Source: Paludibacter propionicigenes WB4 (GTDB lineage Bacteria; Bacteroidota; Bacteroidia; Bacteroidales; Paludibacteraceae). From it: 64,000 nt of DNA. This document shows, piece by piece, positions 12,243 through 43,604 of this stretch. Under the pieces are notes generated by a model. It had not been told where the DNA came from and searched no databases. It was given only the letters and a program-made list of their open reading frames with translations. The translations under genes and the position numbers were made by a program. Where the stretch lies: assembly GCF_000183135.1 (NCBI RefSeq), contig NC_014734.1, positions 3,596,001 to 3,660,000 on the forward strand, read 5' to 3'. The stretch's first letter is position 1. Every line of letters starts with the position of its first letter.

Positions 12243-13421
12243 ATGGCTGACAAGGCATATATAACACCCAACGTACTTCAATGGGCAAGAGAATCGGCCA
12301 GAATGACCGAAGAAATTGCTGCATCCAAAGTTTCGGTGTCGGTGGAAAAGCTTAAGGAATGGGAAGAGGGAAAAGATCAACCGACTATTCATCAGGCTCA
12401 GACGCTGGCTAAAGCCTATAAACGTCCTTTTGCTTTATTCTTTTTGCCTGAAGTTCCACGAGATTTTCAGCCCTTGCAGGACTTCAGAAGTACAGGTTCA
12501 AAACAGCTTACAACTTCCTCCATCTTCATTATCCGCGAGGTACAACAAAAACAGGCATGGATTAGTGATGTGAATAAAGAAAACAATGAAGACAAACTTT
12601 CGTTTGTCGGTCGCTTTAGCATGAATGATAATCCGGCTATTGTTGCACGTGATATATTAAATACGCTTGGTATTAATCCACTACATTATCGAACAGTCAA
12701 TCCTATTAAAGAATGGATTAATGCTGCCGAAGCTAATGGTATATTTGTATCAAGAACAAGTTTTATAAATTCATACCTGACATTGGATTCAGAGGAGTTG
12801 CAAGGTTTTGCTATCTCAGATCCTTATGCCCCCTTTGTATTTGTGAATTCGGTTGATTGGAATGCTCCTCAGCTCTTTACTCTTGTTCATGAGCTTGCCC
12901 ATATCTGGATTGCCGAAACAGGCATATCAAATGATGTAGAACCAGAAATAAGAAATAATCAAAAACATCATCCGGTGGAATTGTTCTGCAATGAAGTTGC
13001 GGCAAATGCTTTAATGCCAGCCGAGTTTTTTGATGGATTAGATGCTACAACTTTTAGTAATGCCAACGTACTTTTCAGAACAGCAAGACTACTAGGAGTA
13101 AGTTCATTTGCGTTGTTGGTTCGTTCGTTTAATTTGAATAAAATTTCTGATTCACATTATCATAAACTCAAACAAGAAGCAGATGCAGAGTTTGCCGCTT
13201 TTTTGCTACGAGAAGCCGAAAAGAAGCTAAAACAAAAAGATAAAGAAACCTCAGGCGGTCCTAACTACTATATGTTGCAGTTAAACCGCAATGGCAGACT
13301 TTTCACACAAACTGTAATTGATTCTTTCAAAGGTGGATTTATTGAGCCAACTATGGCAAGTCAGTTGTTGAATGTACAGGTAAATAAGTTCTCAAAATTA
13401 GAAGCACAATTATTCGCATGA
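12243..13421 (+). CDS. HTH-XRE / ImmA-IrrE metallopeptidase protein (putative antitoxin)
   Basis: The 392-residue protein has an N-terminal Xre-type helix-turn-helix (about residues 8-62; ESARMTEEIAASKVSVSVEKLKEWEEGKDQPTIHQAQTLAKAY) and a COG2856/ImmA-IrrE peptidase domain with the zinc motif HELAH (216-220) and a downstream FCNEVAANALMP glutamate. Family members cleave or bind repressors and often act as the antitoxin-like partner of PIN-type or other toxins. The last four bases of the gene overlap the start of the DUF4411 PIN-like gene (ATGA), showing translational coupling. The predicted role is a DNA-binding, autoregulating partner controlling the downstream toxin. Confidence 0.88.
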   Translation: MADKAYITPNVLQWARESARMTEEIAASKVSVSVEKLKEWEEGKDQPTIHQAQTLAKAYKRPFALFFLPEVPRDFQPLQDFRSTGSKQLTTSSIFIIREVQQKQAWISDVNKENNEDKLSFVGRFSMNDNPAIVARDILNTLGINPLHYRTVNPIKEWINAAEANGIFVSRTSFINSYLTLDSEELQGFAISDPYAPFVFVNSVDWNAPQLFTLVHELAHIWIAETGISNDVEPEIRNNQKHHPVELFCNEVAANALMPAEFFDGLDATTFSNANVLFRTARLLGVSSFALLVRSFNLNKISDSHYHKLKQEADAEFAAFLLREAEKKLKQKDKETSGGPNYYMLQLNRNGRLFTQTVIDSFKGGFIEPTMASQLLNVQVNKFSKLEAQLFA

Positions 13422-13924
13422 GCATGATAGCACCGCTTTACTGTTTGGATGCCAATGTGCTTATACAAGCCTGGCAAAAGTATTATTCTCCCGCTTTATG
13501 CCCTGACTATTGGGACAGACTTAACGATTTAGGAGAACAGGGGTTGATCTTTATTCCGGCAGCAGTAAGGGATGAAATTACAAAAACCGAAGATGAATTA
13601 TCCCAATGGTTGAAGACGAGTAAAATACAGATTAGAAGTATTACTGAACCGGTGACATATTATCTCAGACAAATTTACCAAGCGAACCCTATTCACAAAG
13701 GCTTAGTTGATAACGTGAAAGGTCGCTCACTGGCCGATCCGTGGGTTATTGCTCACGCCATGTCGGAGTCGGCTGTTGTAGTAACAAAAGAAGAGAAAAT
13801 AACTGCTGCTAATTCAAATCGCATTAAAATACCGAATGTTTGTGATAATATGGGTATTCGGTGGATGAACGATTTTGAGTTTATTGCTGAGGTAGGAATT
13901 AGATTCTCCTGTAGGATTGAATGA
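13418..13924 (+). CDS. DUF4411 family PIN-like protein (putative toxin)
   Basis: The 168-residue protein fits the DUF4411 group of PIN-like nucleases. The usual acidic residues are in place: YCLDANVLIQ (first Asp), VRDEITK (Glu), LADPWVIAHAM (Asp) and VVVTKEEK near the end. PIN enzymes cut RNA with Mg2+. Start overlap with the HTH-ImmA gene (ATGA) shows one operon with the regulator first. A second ATG 6 bases downstream is an alternative start. Pairings of Xre-COG2856 proteins with PIN-like toxins were predicted as type II toxin-antitoxin systems (family knowledge); activity here is inferred. Confidence 0.85.
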   Translation: MSMIAPLYCLDANVLIQAWQKYYSPALCPDYWDRLNDLGEQGLIFIPAAVRDEITKTEDELSQWLKTSKIQIRSITEPVTYYLRQIYQANPIHKGLVDNVKGRSLADPWVIAHAMSESAVVVTKEEKITAANSNRIKIPNVCDNMGIRWMNDFEFIAEVGIRFSCRIE

Positions 13925-14038
13925 GTTTATCTTCATTTATCCATTAAACGTGGAATTTTGCAATAATGATGTTTAATGAATAAATAGTAAAAGTAATTTT
14001 ATAACATTTAATTAAAATCGTATTTCAGTAATTGTTCG

Positions 14039-14171
14039 CATACCCAAGAGACCTGAGAAATTTCCAATAGCGAACCACAGAAATAGAATGATTTAGCAAA
14101 ATGCTTACGTCTAACAGCGTGAGTTTTTGGCTTGTCATTTCTGTGTACCTTTCTCAGGGGGCTTGGGTATG
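14039..14171. repeat. Large interrupted inverted repeat overlapping the start of the restriction gene
   Basis: Three nested perfect pairs share one axis: CATACCCAAG (14039-14048) with 14162-14171, CTGAGAAA (14053-14060) with 14150-14157, and CACAGAAA (14076-14083) with 14138-14145. The central loop is about 54 bases. The start codon I choose for the restriction gene, ATG 14169-14171, is the last three bases of the outer right arm. Confidence 0.8.
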
Positions 14172-16592
14172 GATGAGACAAAGCTCACGCTTTCTAAATA
14201 CAGAAAGAGTATGAGCCTTTATGAAAAGCTACAGCATGCCAAAAGCGAAGAAGATGTAAAAGATGCGTATATCAAAGCGCTCGGTCTGAAAGGGTACTCC
14301 AAAAACTTGATTGATATTCAGACCAAAGAAATCTGGTTCGAAGCAAAGGATGGAAGTAAAAACTCTAGCTATGCCATGTTTACACAGCTGATGCATTATG
14401 TGCAGGAAGCATTAAACAAAGGAGAGAAAATTCCCCCTTTTCTCTGTGTCATCGATACTCAGAAGGCAGCCATCATGAAAAGCGAGGATGTGATTCCTTT
14501 CCTTGCTAAAAAAACGATTAAGTGGGGTAAGTCTGCCAGCAGTTATACGCAGGAAGCCTTAGAAGCTATTTCAGCTCATATTGGTACGCACTTTGTTTCG
14601 TTTCGCATCGAAACCCACGAGGTTGAATTTATTTCCACTATCAAAAGTGCTATTAAAAACGGCGATATTATCCGCACCCAAATTACACCCGATAATCTGA
14701 AGCAGGTTTTTGATAAATGGGTAAAAATGGTAGGGCAGGAGATAAAAGGGGTAGTAGTCGAAGATTACGCTTTATTGTTTTTTGCTGACATTATGCACGA
14801 TGGTACAGCTGCCACACACGATGGGCTATCTGCAGAACTGATGTTTAAAAATACAGCTCCGGTATTCTGTTTGAGGGGGAAAAACTATGAATTGGGCAAT
14901 CGAGAAGGCTATCGACAGTTTTGGGCTATCTATCATCGTCCACCTAAAGCCGAATACCGCAATTACCTGCTGGAACGGCGAGATAGTCTGATACCACTTG
15001 ACGAACGCAGTTTTAAAGGAGCATATTATACACCATTGGAAGTGGTGGATAAAGCTTATGATAAACTCACCGAAACGTTAGGTAAAAACTGGCAGAAGGA
15101 ATATGTTGTTTGGGATATGTGTTGTGGAGTAGGTAATCTGGAAGTGAAACACAGCAATCCCCGAAATATCTATATGAGTACTCTCGACCAGGCCGATGTG
15201 GATGTGATGAAAGCTACCAAAACCTGTGTTGCTGCTCAACGCTTTCAGTACGATTACTTAAACGATGATATTACCGACGATGGTCGGATTGATTACTCAC
15301 TGACCAATAAAGTACCAGAAAGCCTGCGTAAAGCCATCGCAGATGGAAAAAAGATTTTGGTGCTGATTAATCCACCGTATGCTGAAGTTGGCACTGGTGC
15401 AGATAGTGGAAATAAAGCGGGTGTTTCCAAAACAAAATTTGCGGCCACAGCAATGACTGATTATGGAAAAGCTAGTAATGAGCTTTTTACCCAATTTGTT
15501 GCTCGAATTGCTCGAGAAATGCCAACAGCAACTTTAGCTATGTTTAGTAAACTGAAATACGTTAATGCTCCCAATTTTGAGAAATTTAGAGCGGTTTGGA
15601 ATGCTCTATACATTGGAGGTTTTATTGTTCATAGTAAATCATTTGATGGATTAGCAGGTAATTTTCCAATAGGTTTTTTAGTTTGGAAAACAAACCAAAA
15701 CTCAAAGAATCAAATTGAGTTTTCTGAAGTTACTACCGAAGTTTTAGATAAATATGTTTGTCCGATTGGGGAAAAAACTTTTTTTAATTTACCCAATAGT
15801 ATCTTTTTAAATGTATGGCTTAATCGCCCCAAAAGGAATAATCAGCCGATGGTGCCATTAAAGAATGCAATAACAACAGCTACATCAAAACCTCGTGTAG
15901 ATTCGTGGTCAAATAATGCTATTGCATATATGTATTGTGGAAAAAATGATTTACAACATTCTGGCCAACAAACGGTTTTGTTTTCATCTCCATATGGGCA
16001 AGGCGATGGATTTTACTTAAATCCGGACAATCTTTGGCAAGGTGCTATTATATTTACTGTTCGCAGAATAATTAAACCAACATGGATTAATGACCGTGAC
16101 CAGTTTTTGCAACCCACCAAAGAACTAACCGAAGAATTTAAAACGGACTGTTTGGTGTGGATGCTGTTTAATGGCAGTAACCTCACTGCGGGAGCTAATG
16201 ACTTGGAATGGAACGGCAAGAAGTGGAGTATTGTCAATCATTTTATTCCGTATACCGAAGAAGAAGTGGGTGCGCCCGATAGGTTTGAATCTGACTTTAT
16301 GGTGCAGTATATGGAGGATAAAGAATTTTCATCCGAAGCTATTGCTGTATTTGATGCCGGTAGAATACTTTGGCAGGCTTACTTTGCCCATACCGATGTA
16401 CGTACTGTTCGGGATGAGTTGAAACTAGATCGTCCGGATGTTGGTTGGTATCAGATACGAAAAGCATTACAAGCTCGTAATGCCAGTGGAGATTTTCCAC
16501 CGATTAGTTTTAAATCATTTGAAACTGTATATAAAGCGTTAACAGAAAAACTGCAACCTATGGTGTATAAGTTGGGATTCTTGAAGATATAA
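14169..16592 (+). CDS. Type IIG-like restriction-modification enzyme (PD-(D/E)XK nuclease + N6-adenine methylase)
   Basis: With the ATG at 14169 the protein has 807 residues; a longer frame reaches a TTG at 14127 inside the inverted repeat and is less likely. The N terminus has DIQTKEIWFEAKDG (Asp49, Glu58, Lys60), consistent with a D...ExK nuclease core. The middle has the methylase landmarks GAYYTP (284-289), motif I WDMCCGVGN (from 315) and the catalytic NPPY (401-404) of gamma-type N6-adenine methyltransferases. The C-terminal 350 residues would hold the target-recognition part. A single chain with nuclease, methylase and specificity parts is the plan of type IIG enzymes (for example Eco57I/BpuSI-like), so no separate partner is needed. 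It is probably a phage-defence gene; the recognition site is unknown. Confidence 0.8.
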   Translation: MDETKLTLSKYRKSMSLYEKLQHAKSEEDVKDAYIKALGLKGYSKNLIDIQTKEIWFEAKDGSKNSSYAMFTQLMHYVQEALNKGEKIPPFLCVIDTQKAAIMKSEDVIPFLAKKTIKWGKSASSYTQEALEAISAHIGTHFVSFRIETHEVEFISTIKSAIKNGDIIRTQITPDNLKQVFDKWVKMVGQEIKGVVVEDYALLFFADIMHDGTAATHDGLSAELMFKNTAPVFCLRGKNYELGNREGYRQFWAIYHRPPKAEYRNYLLERRDSLIPLDERSFKGAYYTPLEVVDKAYDKLTETLGKNWQKEYVVWDMCCGVGNLEVKHSNPRNIYMSTLDQADVDVMKATKTCVAAQRFQYDYLNDDITDDGRIDYSLTNKVPESLRKAIADGKKILVLINPPYAEVGTGADSGNKAGVSKTKFAATAMTDYGKASNELFTQFVARIAREMPTATLAMFSKLKYVNAPNFEKFRAVWNALYIGGFIVHSKSFDGLAGNFPIGFLVWKTNQNSKNQIEFSEVTTEVLDKYVCPIGEKTFFNLPNSIFLNVWLNRPKRNNQPMVPLKNAITTATSKPRVDSWSNNAIAYMYCGKNDLQHSGQQTVLFSSPYGQGDGFYLNPDNLWQGAIIFTVRRIIKPTWINDRDQFLQPTKELTEEFKTDCLVWMLFNGSNLTAGANDLEWNGKKWSIVNHFIPYTEEEVGAPDRFESDFMVQYMEDKEFSSEAIAVFDAGRILWQAYFAHTDVRTVRDELKLDRPDVGWYQIRKALQARNASGDFPPISFKSFETVYKALTEKLQPMVYKLGFLKI

Positions 16593-19288: not shown

Positions 19289-19397
19289 ATTCTCTCTTGA
19301 TTTTAGATTATTCAATTCTATGTAGGAGAATATCTGTTACGTTTATTTGATAGATATTCAGTGCTATATACTCAATTCAGAACCTTATCAATATATT

Positions 19398-20450
19398 ATG
19401 AGATACACACTTTTTGCAGAAATTAATCTGCTTGACACATTTTTCGATTCACTGCGTGAGAGTTATGCTGAGTTTAATGATTGGTTTGCGCGCAAAGCTG
19501 CCGAAGGGGAATCGGCTTATATTTTGCCAAACCGTCGTGGTGGCTTGGATGCCTTCTTGTATTTAAAAATTGAAAATGATGTTGTAACAGATGTCGAGCC
19601 AAATTTGCCAGAAGGAATAAAAGTGAAAGTTGGCACATTGAAAGTAAATGCTCATGGAACACGGCTTGGAGAACGACTGGTGAAAAAGATATTTGACTTT
19701 GCAGTTGTAAACAATGCCGATTCTGTATATGTAACTGTCTTTGATGAACATGAAGCGTTAATTGAGTTGTTGTGTAGATATGGATTTGAAAAATATGGGA
19801 TCAAGGTTACAGCCAATGGAGCAGAACATGTATTAGTGAAAAATATGCGATTAATCAGAGATAATATTCTGAAGGATTACCCATTGATTGACGTTCGGGG
19901 GCGCAATAAATTTGCGTTATCAATTTATCCCGCGTTTCACACCCGATTATTTCCCGACTCAATTTTGAATAATGAACACTACGATATTATTACAGATATT
20001 TCTCCGACTAACAGTATCCATAAAACATATATCTGTTATATGGGAGATGTGATAAATCTTCATGCAAATGATATTGTGTTAATCTATCGGACAACTGATG
20101 GTAAAGGATCCGCAAGGTTCAGAAGTGTAATTACATCTATCTGTGTGGTACAAGAAGTTTTGACGCGGAGAAGCTTTGAGAACGAAGATCACTACGTAGA
20201 ATATTGCCGCAGAAATAGTATCTTTGCAGAAGCTGATTTAAGGCAATGGTACAGAAGAAGTGGTAATTTATTTGTTATTAAAATGACCTATAATGCTGCT
20301 TTCAGGAGACGAGTTACAAATGGAACTCTTATTGATACTGTTGGATTAAATCCGAATTACTGGGGATTCTTTAGAGTCACGGATGAACAATTTAATCAAA
20401 TAATTAATTTAGGGGGAGTGTATGAAAATCTTATTGTCGATAAAGCCTGA
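19398..20450 (+). CDS. GNAT-fold protein with PUA-like C-terminal domain
   Basis: From ATG 19398 the protein has 350 residues (an in-frame start at 19347 would add 17 residues without family support). Residues about 1-160 look like a GNAT acetyltransferase: VKVGTLKVNAHGTRLGERLVKKIF gives the acetyl-CoA loop and LIELLCRYGFEKYGIK the terminal strand-helix. Residues about 200-345 (TYICYMGDVINLHANDIVLIYRTTDG...RFRSVITSICVVQEV) resemble a PUA/EVE-like barrel used for binding modified nucleic acids. Its last 29 bases overlap the ASCH-domain gene. The pair may modify and sense RNA or control translation; this is inference. Confidence 0.75.
   Translation: MRYTLFAEINLLDTFFDSLRESYAEFNDWFARKAAEGESAYILPNRRGGLDAFLYLKIENDVVTDVEPNLPEGIKVKVGTLKVNAHGTRLGERLVKKIFDFAVVNNADSVYVTVFDEHEALIELLCRYGFEKYGIKVTANGAEHVLVKNMRLIRDNILKDYPLIDVRGRNKFALSIYPAFHTRLFPDSILNNEHYDIITDISPTNSIHKTYICYMGDVINLHANDIVLIYRTTDGKGSARFRSVITSICVVQEVLTRRSFENEDHYVEYCRRNSIFAEADLRQWYRRSGNLFVIKMTYNAAFRRRVTNGTLIDTVGLNPNYWGFFRVTDEQFNQIINLGGVYENLIVDKA
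20412..20418 (+). promoter_or_regulatory. Strong Shine-Dalgarno for the ASCH gene
   Basis: GGGGGAG lies 3 bases before the ATG at 20422, inside the end of the upstream gene. Purine-rich sites like this are uncommon in Bacteroidota and support internal initiation at the overlapping start. Confidence 0.5.
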
Positions 20451-20990: not shown

Positions 20991-21335
20991 TTAGGAGAAG
21001 TGCAACATAATTCTGTCGCGGTCTTCGTTTTCTTTGTCGTTTTTGTGATACAGTTCCACCAATACGATTTTGCTCTCCTGCGGGTAATGTGCGTATATCA
21101 ATCGGAGTCCGGAATTCACCCCGCGTCCTTTCATCGATTTACAGGCTATTTTCTTTACTTTAATAATGCAGGTTGAAGTACCAAGATTATCTATTCGGAA
21201 GCTAAACGGAGGTCTTTCGTCGGGGGTCACAGTAAGCACACGCTTCACAATGGCTAAGTCATCGTTGAGTGTTCTGTATTTTTTCAGCAGACTTTTCAGA
21301 TCCTTTTTAAATTCGCTTAACTCCTCGAATATCAT
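20991..21335 (-). CDS. RelE/HigB-like toxin paired with Panacea antitoxin
   Basis: The 114-residue basic protein has the RelE/ParE-superfamily outline: an N-terminal helical pair (FEELSEFKKDLKSLLKKYRTL), then strands with IIKVKKIACKSMKGRGVNSGLRLIYAHY, IVLVELYHKND and a short tail. Arg/Lys residues on the core strands fit ribosome-dependent mRNA cleavage by RelE-like toxins. Its start overlaps the stop of the HTH-Panacea gene by 4 bases (ATGA), with the antitoxin gene first. Toxin action is inferred from family and context. Confidence 0.85.
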   Translation of the reverse strand: MIFEELSEFKKDLKSLLKKYRTLNDDLAIVKRVLTVTPDERPPFSFRIDNLGTSTCIIKVKKIACKSMKGRGVNSGLRLIYAHYPQESKIVLVELYHKNDKENEDRDRIMLHFS

Positions 21336-22132
21336 GGCTCCTGTATGTCTTCGTTATAGTTTCGTACCGAGTAGGGGGTATCTCTGTAGAAAACCAGTTC
21401 GTAATTAATCTCTTCACCATCGTTCGATGCAAGCCATGGCATATCTTTATGCGAATAATTGCTTATTGCTGATGCCGACCAATCGCTCATTTGTTCTATC
21501 ACCCGGTCGATAATTTCTTTTTCGCTAGCCTTTAAATTTGTAAGATCGGCCTTTACCAACGGGATATAGCGTGTCTGCGGAAATCCGTGATATTCTGACT
21601 TAAACCGTTTGATTTTATCCTGTTCTATCATTTGGTGAATAATAGATTCCAGTTTTTGAGGCACCGGACCGTAAGGAAGTTTGCGGTACTTCGCTCCGGT
21701 TAAATGTTCTTCGTAAAGCTCGTAGTAATTAAAGTCGGAAAAATAAAGCAATTTATAAAGCACTGTTTCTCCCACGTTGGGCTTCCCGGCACATTTTTCG
21801 AGAATGTAGAGCAGTACATTTTTAAATTTATCCAATTGCAGGGTTGGTACTGAAATACGCTCGGATATTTCTTTCGGCATGGCCGTTTCGTGCTTCAGTT
21901 CATGTTTACTGTTGAAATTTTCGGACATAATATCATCCAGCGAAAATCCTAACACGGTGGCTAACTTTTGCATTTCGAGTATGCCTATATTTCTGTTGCC
22001 AAGTTCAACCTGTGCCAGCGATGGACGGGAAAATCCTATACTTTTGGCCAGTTCTTCCTGCGAGAGTCCTTTTGTTTTGCGGAGTTCGGTTATTCTTTGT
22101 CCGATTTGTTTTTGCGACAGGGTATTATTCAT
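21332..22132 (-). CDS. HTH-Panacea antitoxin (Xre HTH + DUF4065/SocA-like)
   Basis: The 266-residue protein joins an Xre-type helix-turn-helix (about residues 8-64; IGQRITELRKTKGLSQEELAKSIGFSRPSLAQVELG) to a Panacea domain (DUF4065, about 112-235), shown by GETVLYKLLYFSDFNYYELYEE and KYRKLPYGPVPQKLESIIHQM. Panacea proteins were described as versatile antitoxins that neutralise many unrelated toxins; this one is coupled with a RelE-like toxin. The HTH would bind the two 21-bp operators at 22217-22260 and repress the operon. Confidence 0.9.
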   Translation of the reverse strand: MNNTLSQKQIGQRITELRKTKGLSQEELAKSIGFSRPSLAQVELGNRNIGILEMQKLATVLGFSLDDIMSENFNSKHELKHETAMPKEISERISVPTLQLDKFKNVLLYILEKCAGKPNVGETVLYKLLYFSDFNYYELYEEHLTGAKYRKLPYGPVPQKLESIIHQMIEQDKIKRFKSEYHGFPQTRYIPLVKADLTNLKASEKEIIDRVIEQMSDWSASAISNYSHKDMPWLASNDGEEINYELVFYRDTPYSVRNYNEDIQEP

Positions 22133-43387: not shown

Positions 43388-43604
43388 GAATCCTGAAAAG
43401 GATTCAATGTAAATAACCGCGGGTGTAACCCGTGGTATTTGTACAAAACAATCAGAACCCCGAATGGGGTTCAATATCATATTATTTATATATTGAACCC
43501 CATTCGGGGTTCGCATTCATGCCCTGTCTTTTCCACGGGTTACACCCGCGGTTATTCATATTCAAGTCCTTCGGACTTGTAAAATAGTGAGATTCAAAAG
43601 AATC
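43388..43604. repeat. Nested palindrome cluster (REP/BIME-like)
   Basis: From outside in: hairpin GAATCC-N6-GGATTC (43388-43405); a 24-bp perfect pair starting AATAACCGCGGGTGTAACCC (43412-43435 with 43533-43556); and a 23-bp perfect pair (43455-43477 with 43490-43512) whose arm is itself GAACCCC-GAAT-GGGGTTC. Then CAAGTCCTTCGGACTTG (43563-43579) and GATTCAAAAGAATC (43591-43604). No gene is seen in 43338-43731. Confidence 0.9.

Follow-up and report, generated by a model that had tools for sequence, protein, structure and literature searches.

Intrinsic-terminator attenuators are known both as the trp type and as the expression platforms of riboswitches. The element analyzed here lies ahead of a restriction/methylase-type gene of Paludibacter propionicigenes WB4, in a 64,000-nucleotide stretch of contig NC_014734.1 (the window, within which all coordinates are given). 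It belongs to a family of putative leaders that resemble these attenuators in having exclusive pairings that share segments, a terminator hairpin followed by a T-run, and a start codon not far beyond it. Unlike the trp-type and riboswitch attenuators, the leader comes without a known ligand or leader peptide, its long stems are hypervariable yet compensated, and it stands before unrelated accessory genes. The JUMPstart/ops (RfaH) and LoaP leaders provide a precedent for this last property, because there too one element is common to many unrelated accessory operons; the difference is that the present leader contains the terminator within itself. Integron attC sites offer a comparison at the DNA level, being folded inverted repeats whose structure is better conserved than their sequence. 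The leader is likewise a folded inverted repeat of similar length beside accessory genes, conserved more in structure than in sequence, but it differs from attC in its T-run, in its fixed spacing to start codons, and in the lack of any integrase match above the cut-off in the 48 genomes of the genus.

RNA control of restriction genes has been described for EcoRI and Eco29kI, which have antisense RNAs, and restriction systems with hairpins over start sites are also covered in the part of that source considered here (PMC12707154). The resemblance is that an RNA would limit restriction gene expression, as is proposed for the leader; those cases are single systems, whereas the leader is one conserved form common to a wide range of restriction families that are unrelated to each other. 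Words that begin with attenuat, riboswitch or leader are absent from the covered text of PMC12707154, which is a review. More broadly, the leader is not described in the portions covered of the open-licence literature (main texts without supplements), including PMC2864571, PMC7366714, PMC12707154 and PMC8040213. The covered part of PMC2864571 names two Bacteroidetes motifs that lack an Rfam number, Bacteroides-2 and GUCCY-hairpin, and these lie outside the comparison on which we base the statement that the family is seemingly undescribed so far. Attenuators as such are known; a leader of this structure and gene range was not found in the open-licence literature, which is no proof of novelty.

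The inverted repeat and the gene behind it

The preliminary description reported three perfect arm pairs on one axis at 14039-14171, and the inverted repeat proved to be real. Its arms (14039-14060 and 14150-14171) are 22 nt each and 86% complementary. Two perfect pairs share the axis at 14105, namely the 10-bp stem a (CATACCCAAG at 14039-14048 with CTTGGGTATG at 14162-14171), which is hypervariable in the family, and the 9-bp middle stem (CCTGAGAAA at 14052-14060 with TTTCTCAGG at 14150-14158). The common axis does not extend to the third pair, the 9-bp stem b (CACAGAAAT at 14076-14084 with ATTTCTGTG at 14137-14145), which is centered on 14110.5 and hence 5.5 nt off; the pairs are nested, not strictly coaxial. 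When the whole window was dinucleotide-shuffled ten times, arms of equal quality turned up at three places in total; taken by themselves, the arms are therefore only slightly out of the ordinary. The predicted fold is another matter: the + strand reaches a minimum free energy of -54.3 kcal/mol (z -5.6, with none of 200 shuffles as good), and the - strand -43.6 kcal/mol (z -3.5, 1/200). The fold of the repeat region is not due to chance. The repeat forms the core of an element of about 160 nt, the putative leader RNA, which spans 14031-14190 on the + strand and is matched by a covariance model at 127.7 bits (see below).

The ATG at 14169-14171 does form the end of the outer arm, in the 3' arm of stem a, as had been stated, but its choice as the start codon is probably wrong. 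Four homologues (L032, L033, L038 and L053, the last two as partial matches) begin with MSLY..., which corresponds to an in-frame ATG at 14211-14213 here, and the gene therefore most likely starts there, outside the big repeat, and runs on the + strand to 16592. No copy of the element was seen in the 260-330 nt examined upstream of these four homologues. The earlier proposal that the outer arm hides the start codon, and thereby controls translation, gains something from the ATG within the arm and from another small predicted hairpin (14183-14216, + strand; z -2.7, seen in the window copy only), which would cover the ATG at 14211-14213 when segment t3' (see below) is free. Both the homologues that start at 14211 and the relatives of the element, whose start codon lies a median of 60 nt behind it, speak against translation control, which we regard as very improbable; for the outer arm in particular, the proposal loses its footing with the relocated start.

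The family assignment of the window protein as restriction/methylase-type rests on weak sequence evidence. It matches TIGR02987 (Alw26I-type methylase) at 4.3e-6, far below the cut-off of that model, and, at about 4e-4, models for type II methylases, with no Pfam match. Homologues are present in genomes and plasmids (matches in 15 plasmid records), and the protein found no match among phages. Just upstream of the leader, at 12243-13924, an HTH/ImmA-IrrE-type gene overlaps a DUF4411 gene; the two may form a toxin-antitoxin or regulator pair. Farther downstream, 19347-20447 strongly matches the PADLOC candidate defence protein PDC-M11A (4e-135), and 21332-22132 holds an HTH plus SocA/Panacea gene. 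The window also contains a second large inverted repeat, at 43403-43565, with arms paired up to 22/22; similar palindromes elsewhere in the same genome give 17 matches in all, some on both strands, and this repeat looks like a REP/MITE-type sequence unrelated to the leader.

Spread of the element and its two pairings

The element was found by BLAST in 21 of 149 relatives (its own genome included), 20 of these 21 belonging to the genus. An exact pattern for its 5' end picked out 64 stretches in a species-genome collection, all with Bacteroidota titles, among them Paludibacter, Bacteroidales, Prolixibacteraceae and Porphyromonas. Of 70 pattern matches, 8 lacked flank and 7 lacked the t3' motif, and two divergent copies among the remaining 55 (L080 and L097:3673) stayed outside alignment A1, a plain MAFFT alignment of 54 copies, the window's and 53 relatives. 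Covariance model R1, built from 54 sequences, had at least 108 matches within the genus, spread over 26 of its 48 genomes. In wider samples it matched 186 of 300 genomes from the family, a sample that includes the genus, and 82 of 344 genomes from the order at E <= 1e-5; in all of these searches the copies per genome are lower bounds. The score of the window copy is the third lowest among the 57 copies that reach at least 100 bits. Rfam had no match in the window at the gathering threshold, and over the element even E values up to 5 brought nothing close to it; over 20 element loci it returned only two tRNAs and a DUF805b RNA, and no family for the element.

Parts of the element also occur on their own. 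The 5' palindrome stands by itself ahead of some small genes, including DUF4160 genes; the 5' part alone precedes DUF4160-type genes at L074, L087, L092, L095 and L101, and at all of these except L095 a full element follows about 0.8 kb or less after the 5'-part-only copy. In the range L153-L199, a variable-stem hairpin of the form NNNNTGTAGCGACANNNN lies ahead of many copies of other subtypes.

Two pairings of the element draw on the same segments. In fold B, the 5' half would pair with the 3' half through stems a, middle, b, k and c, segment c5' (14103-14111) being the partner of c3' (14116-14124) and, in relatives, k1 (14131-14136) pairing with an upstream segment; t3' (14182-14190) is left free. 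In fold T, c3' and k1 would instead pair with t3' and k2 (14172-14177), respectively, producing a hairpin with t3' as the 3' arm of its stem and with the T-run (site 14191-14195) directly after it, that is, a predicted intrinsic terminator. The start codon would lie a median of 60 nt beyond it.

Both pairings are conserved. On A1, 96.9% of the cells of fold B (41 pairs, 54 copies) are paired, with 286 double-change cells against a shuffled mean of 71.9, and versions slid along the alignment are only 35-53% paired. For fold T the corresponding values are 97.1% paired and 27 double-change cells against 7.5 in shuffles, the terminator stem being paired in 98.8% of cells and k1:k2 in 100%; fold T is partly selected in A1, because the motif by which the relatives were chosen contains t3' and five T. 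In a wider set of 69 copies, in an alignment fitted to the model, 94.8% of the fold B cells are paired, and double changes number 673 cells compared to 181. The compensatory change anticipated for the arms is thus present, and massively so, in the stems of both A1 and the 69-copy set. Segments c5', c3' and t3' co-vary in L066, L117, L214 and L236, and c3' co-varies with t3' also in L119; in the window copy one position of the c3':t3' pairing is A-T, whereas it is G-C or G-T in the majority of copies. By comparative sequence analysis, then, the element has two mutually exclusive pairings that share segments and are both conserved, as is characteristic of an attenuator. A third partner for k2, 3' of the T-run, appears in 29 of 54 rows and is not claimed.

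A run of at least five T at the 3' end occurs in 66 of 69 copies that were not selected for it, compared to 275 of 4000 random 20-nt pieces of those loci, and in 53 of 53 A1 relatives, which were picked with a motif including the T-run. The row-by-row placement of the T-run is wrong in L215, L219, L229 and L230, and in some rows with c3' GCGTGG. The window copy has a degenerate TTTCT in place of the run, so that the terminator with T-run is a feature of the family and not of this copy. Its 3' half forms the T stem, yet no better than shuffles do (z -0.97, 37/200). One reading of these facts is that the family is a regulator while the window copy is a decaying relic, now just a long inert 5' untranslated region. 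The lost T-run, the low rank of its score and a degenerate 5' palindrome argue for a relic; on the other side, both pairings are kept, including the c3':t3' A-T pair, and the fold is strong. We consider decay a possibility to be taken seriously, albeit clearly the less probable state of affairs.

The pattern of G.U pairs bears on whether the element acts as RNA or as DNA. Stems k and c of fold B contain 140 G.U against 4 A.C cells, and fold T contains 162 against 5, two counts that are not independent, because c3' and k1 are common to both. Such an excess of G.U over A.C in k, c and fold T is what would be expected of + strand RNA or single-stranded DNA. The hypervariable stems a, middle and b, however, have only 24 G.U against 17 A.C cells, nearly all else being Watson-Crick. 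This scarcity of G.U is not predicted by ordinary RNA evolution; possible causes are the one-step replacement of both arms or a constraint at the DNA level. In the A1 copies, the same variants of these three stems recur in different genomes before different genes. Private stem codes for each genome were rejected: none of 49 within-genome pairs shares stem a or b, where 1.6 and 1.7 would be expected, a difference that is not significant.

The suggestion of a plain DNA operator or cruciform finds no support, since the G.U pairs are strand-specific in the central stems, though not in the hypervariable ones. A more elaborate DNA-level reading would have the element be a recombination site that folds as a single strand, in the manner of integron attC, or a transposable repeat, with the genes as its cargo. 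An attC-like site was considered because small same-strand genes precede the element and large genes follow it. The perfectly compensated stems without G.U/A.C asymmetry are consistent with such a site, as are the small same-strand genes upstream in 44 of 54 cases, several model matches at contig ends, and the tyrosine recombinases weakly matching the integron-integrase model in 48 of 48 genomes, some of them in two pieces (130 and 96 bits in G031). Weaker matches also occur in 14 of 14 control genomes, and no genome of the 48 has a match above the cut-off. Four integrase-like loci carry no element, and on these two grounds integron attC itself was rejected. The core sites of attC are GTTRRRY/RYYYAAC, and such sites were not apparent in the element copies on inspection by eye. 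The T-run and the spacing to start codons, the two exclusive folds with their G.U asymmetry, and the single copy in the element's own genome also stand against a DNA-level element, which we judge to be improbable. Unusual tyrosine recombinases are encoded by ORFs of about 520-608 aa in G001, G014, G015, G016, G018, G023, G025, G030, G031, G036, G045 and G046; their match to the integron-integrase model falls into two pieces and skips the middle part of the model.

A tiny insertion of the MITE type, raised earlier from the spacing of the arms, is likewise disfavored: both BLAST and the covariance model find one copy in the own genome, which rules out a MITE or dispersed repeat there, and across genomes the element keeps a fixed place and orientation before genes. 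The related idea of a dispersed repeat unrelated to the gene holds in so far as the element is dispersed, and fails in that its copies are not independent of genes. Invertible DNA was discarded as well, the core having a single orientation relative to the 5' motif in the A1 relatives. A phage or plasmid origin was rejected with the copies tried: exact element patterns had no match in viral contigs, BLAST with copy L228 had none in phages, and BLAST with copies L228 and L111 had none in plasmids.

Genes next to the element

The position of the element relative to genes was counted for copies with enough flank, scoring any ORF of 100 aa or more on the same strand that starts no more than 250 nt after the element. 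Such a gene start follows 48 of 49 copies of the window's subtype (median 60 nt), against 2 of 50 in the mirrored control; for other subtypes in the genus the figures are 36 of 46 against 1 of 40, and for family and order 21 of 25 against 1 of 22.

The downstream proteins of the window's subtype were drawn from 57 copies, of which L062, L112 and L080 gave none, with L119 added by hand. They were classed by their matches in Pfam and PADLOC, and BLAST clusters served to extend these assignments, not every member being scanned singly. On this basis, 48 of 54 are restriction-modification or related defence proteins, comprising 33 DNA methylases (the window's own protein is counted here on weak evidence), 11 helicase or restriction proteins and 4 TPR proteins; for two of the latter, L070 and L118, the next gene was tested and encodes a PLD-SNF2 helicase. 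The leader is thus present before methylase, helicase and Res-type genes alike. The remaining six are L061, L097:3673 (an HTH_17 protein), L085, L091, L093 and L123. Of the earlier interpretation, an RNA-type structure with compensatory change ahead of a restriction gene is supported.

The other subtypes present a different picture. Among their 42 downstream proteins, reduced to 40 by the exclusion of L167 and L185, only two are methylases (L178, and L159 by eye and tally), and the commonest families are Por_Secre_tail (9), Fib_succ_major (6) and Ion_trans (3). With 48/54 in one subtype and 2/40 in the other, the link to restriction genes is a property of the subtype, and what the whole family has in common is its place before accessory genes.

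On the upstream side, 44 of 54 neighbors share the strand of the element. The scan of these proteins covered 33 of them, from the 32 of the 44 same-strand neighbors that are no more than 200 nt away and, separately, the window's own. They include 9 DUF2442 proteins, 6 nucleotidyltransferases, 5 ORF6N, 3 PIN, 2 KilA-N and 2 ParE proteins, all families that are often found in toxin-antitoxin modules.

A free-standing small RNA, acting in trans and ending at its own terminator while the gene behind has its own promoter, would also account for the strong overall fold and for a terminator with a T-run. The fixed orientation of the element, the short distance to the next start codon, and the fact that copies precede many unrelated genes make such an RNA unlikely. 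A search for a standalone promoter found one sigma-70-like site, against 1.5 expected by chance, and identified no promoter.

Proposed mechanism and significance

As judged from sequence comparison, the element is probably, though by no means certainly, a cis-acting transcription-attenuation leader of the gene that follows, drawn from a large Bacteroidales leader RNA family. When fold B forms, the polymerase would read through, and when B is prevented or undone, it would stop at the terminator of fold T. A factor acting on the 5' half would then set expression. The mean energy of the free fold is -66 kcal/mol, compared to -40 kcal/mol with T enforced, and B is therefore taken as the stable state. 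Since the gap averages about 27 kcal/mol (range 8 to 39), T may rarely form. With B the more stable, read-through would be the default and a signal would bring about the stop, unless co-transcriptional folding reverses the order. The window copy keeps both folds and has lost the T-run, and because of that loss its own activity is uncertain; it may be weakened, or it may act via the hairpin over the start codon.

A bolder proposal is a defence regulon, in which a single family of RNA switches would govern many unrelated restriction and defence systems jointly. The hypervariable, perfectly compensated stems would be address codes, and their reader an RNA or protein that acts in trans and signals infection or the entry of DNA. 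We put this forward as speculation with a small chance of being correct. An RNA in trans as reader of these stems is possible, but the simple test for genome-specific codes described above gave no significant result.

The control of restriction is a long-standing question, told mostly in terms of C proteins, promoter methylation and antisense RNA. The hypervariable stems, nearly without G.U intermediates, are in themselves a puzzle of RNA evolution. If the attenuation model is true, otherwise unrelated defence systems, with type I, II and III methylases, SNF2/PLD helicases and Res-type proteins among them, would have one layer of control in common. The wider family also stands ahead of accessory genes of other kinds, those for secreted proteins included, which suggests a general gating of accessory genes in Bacteroidales.
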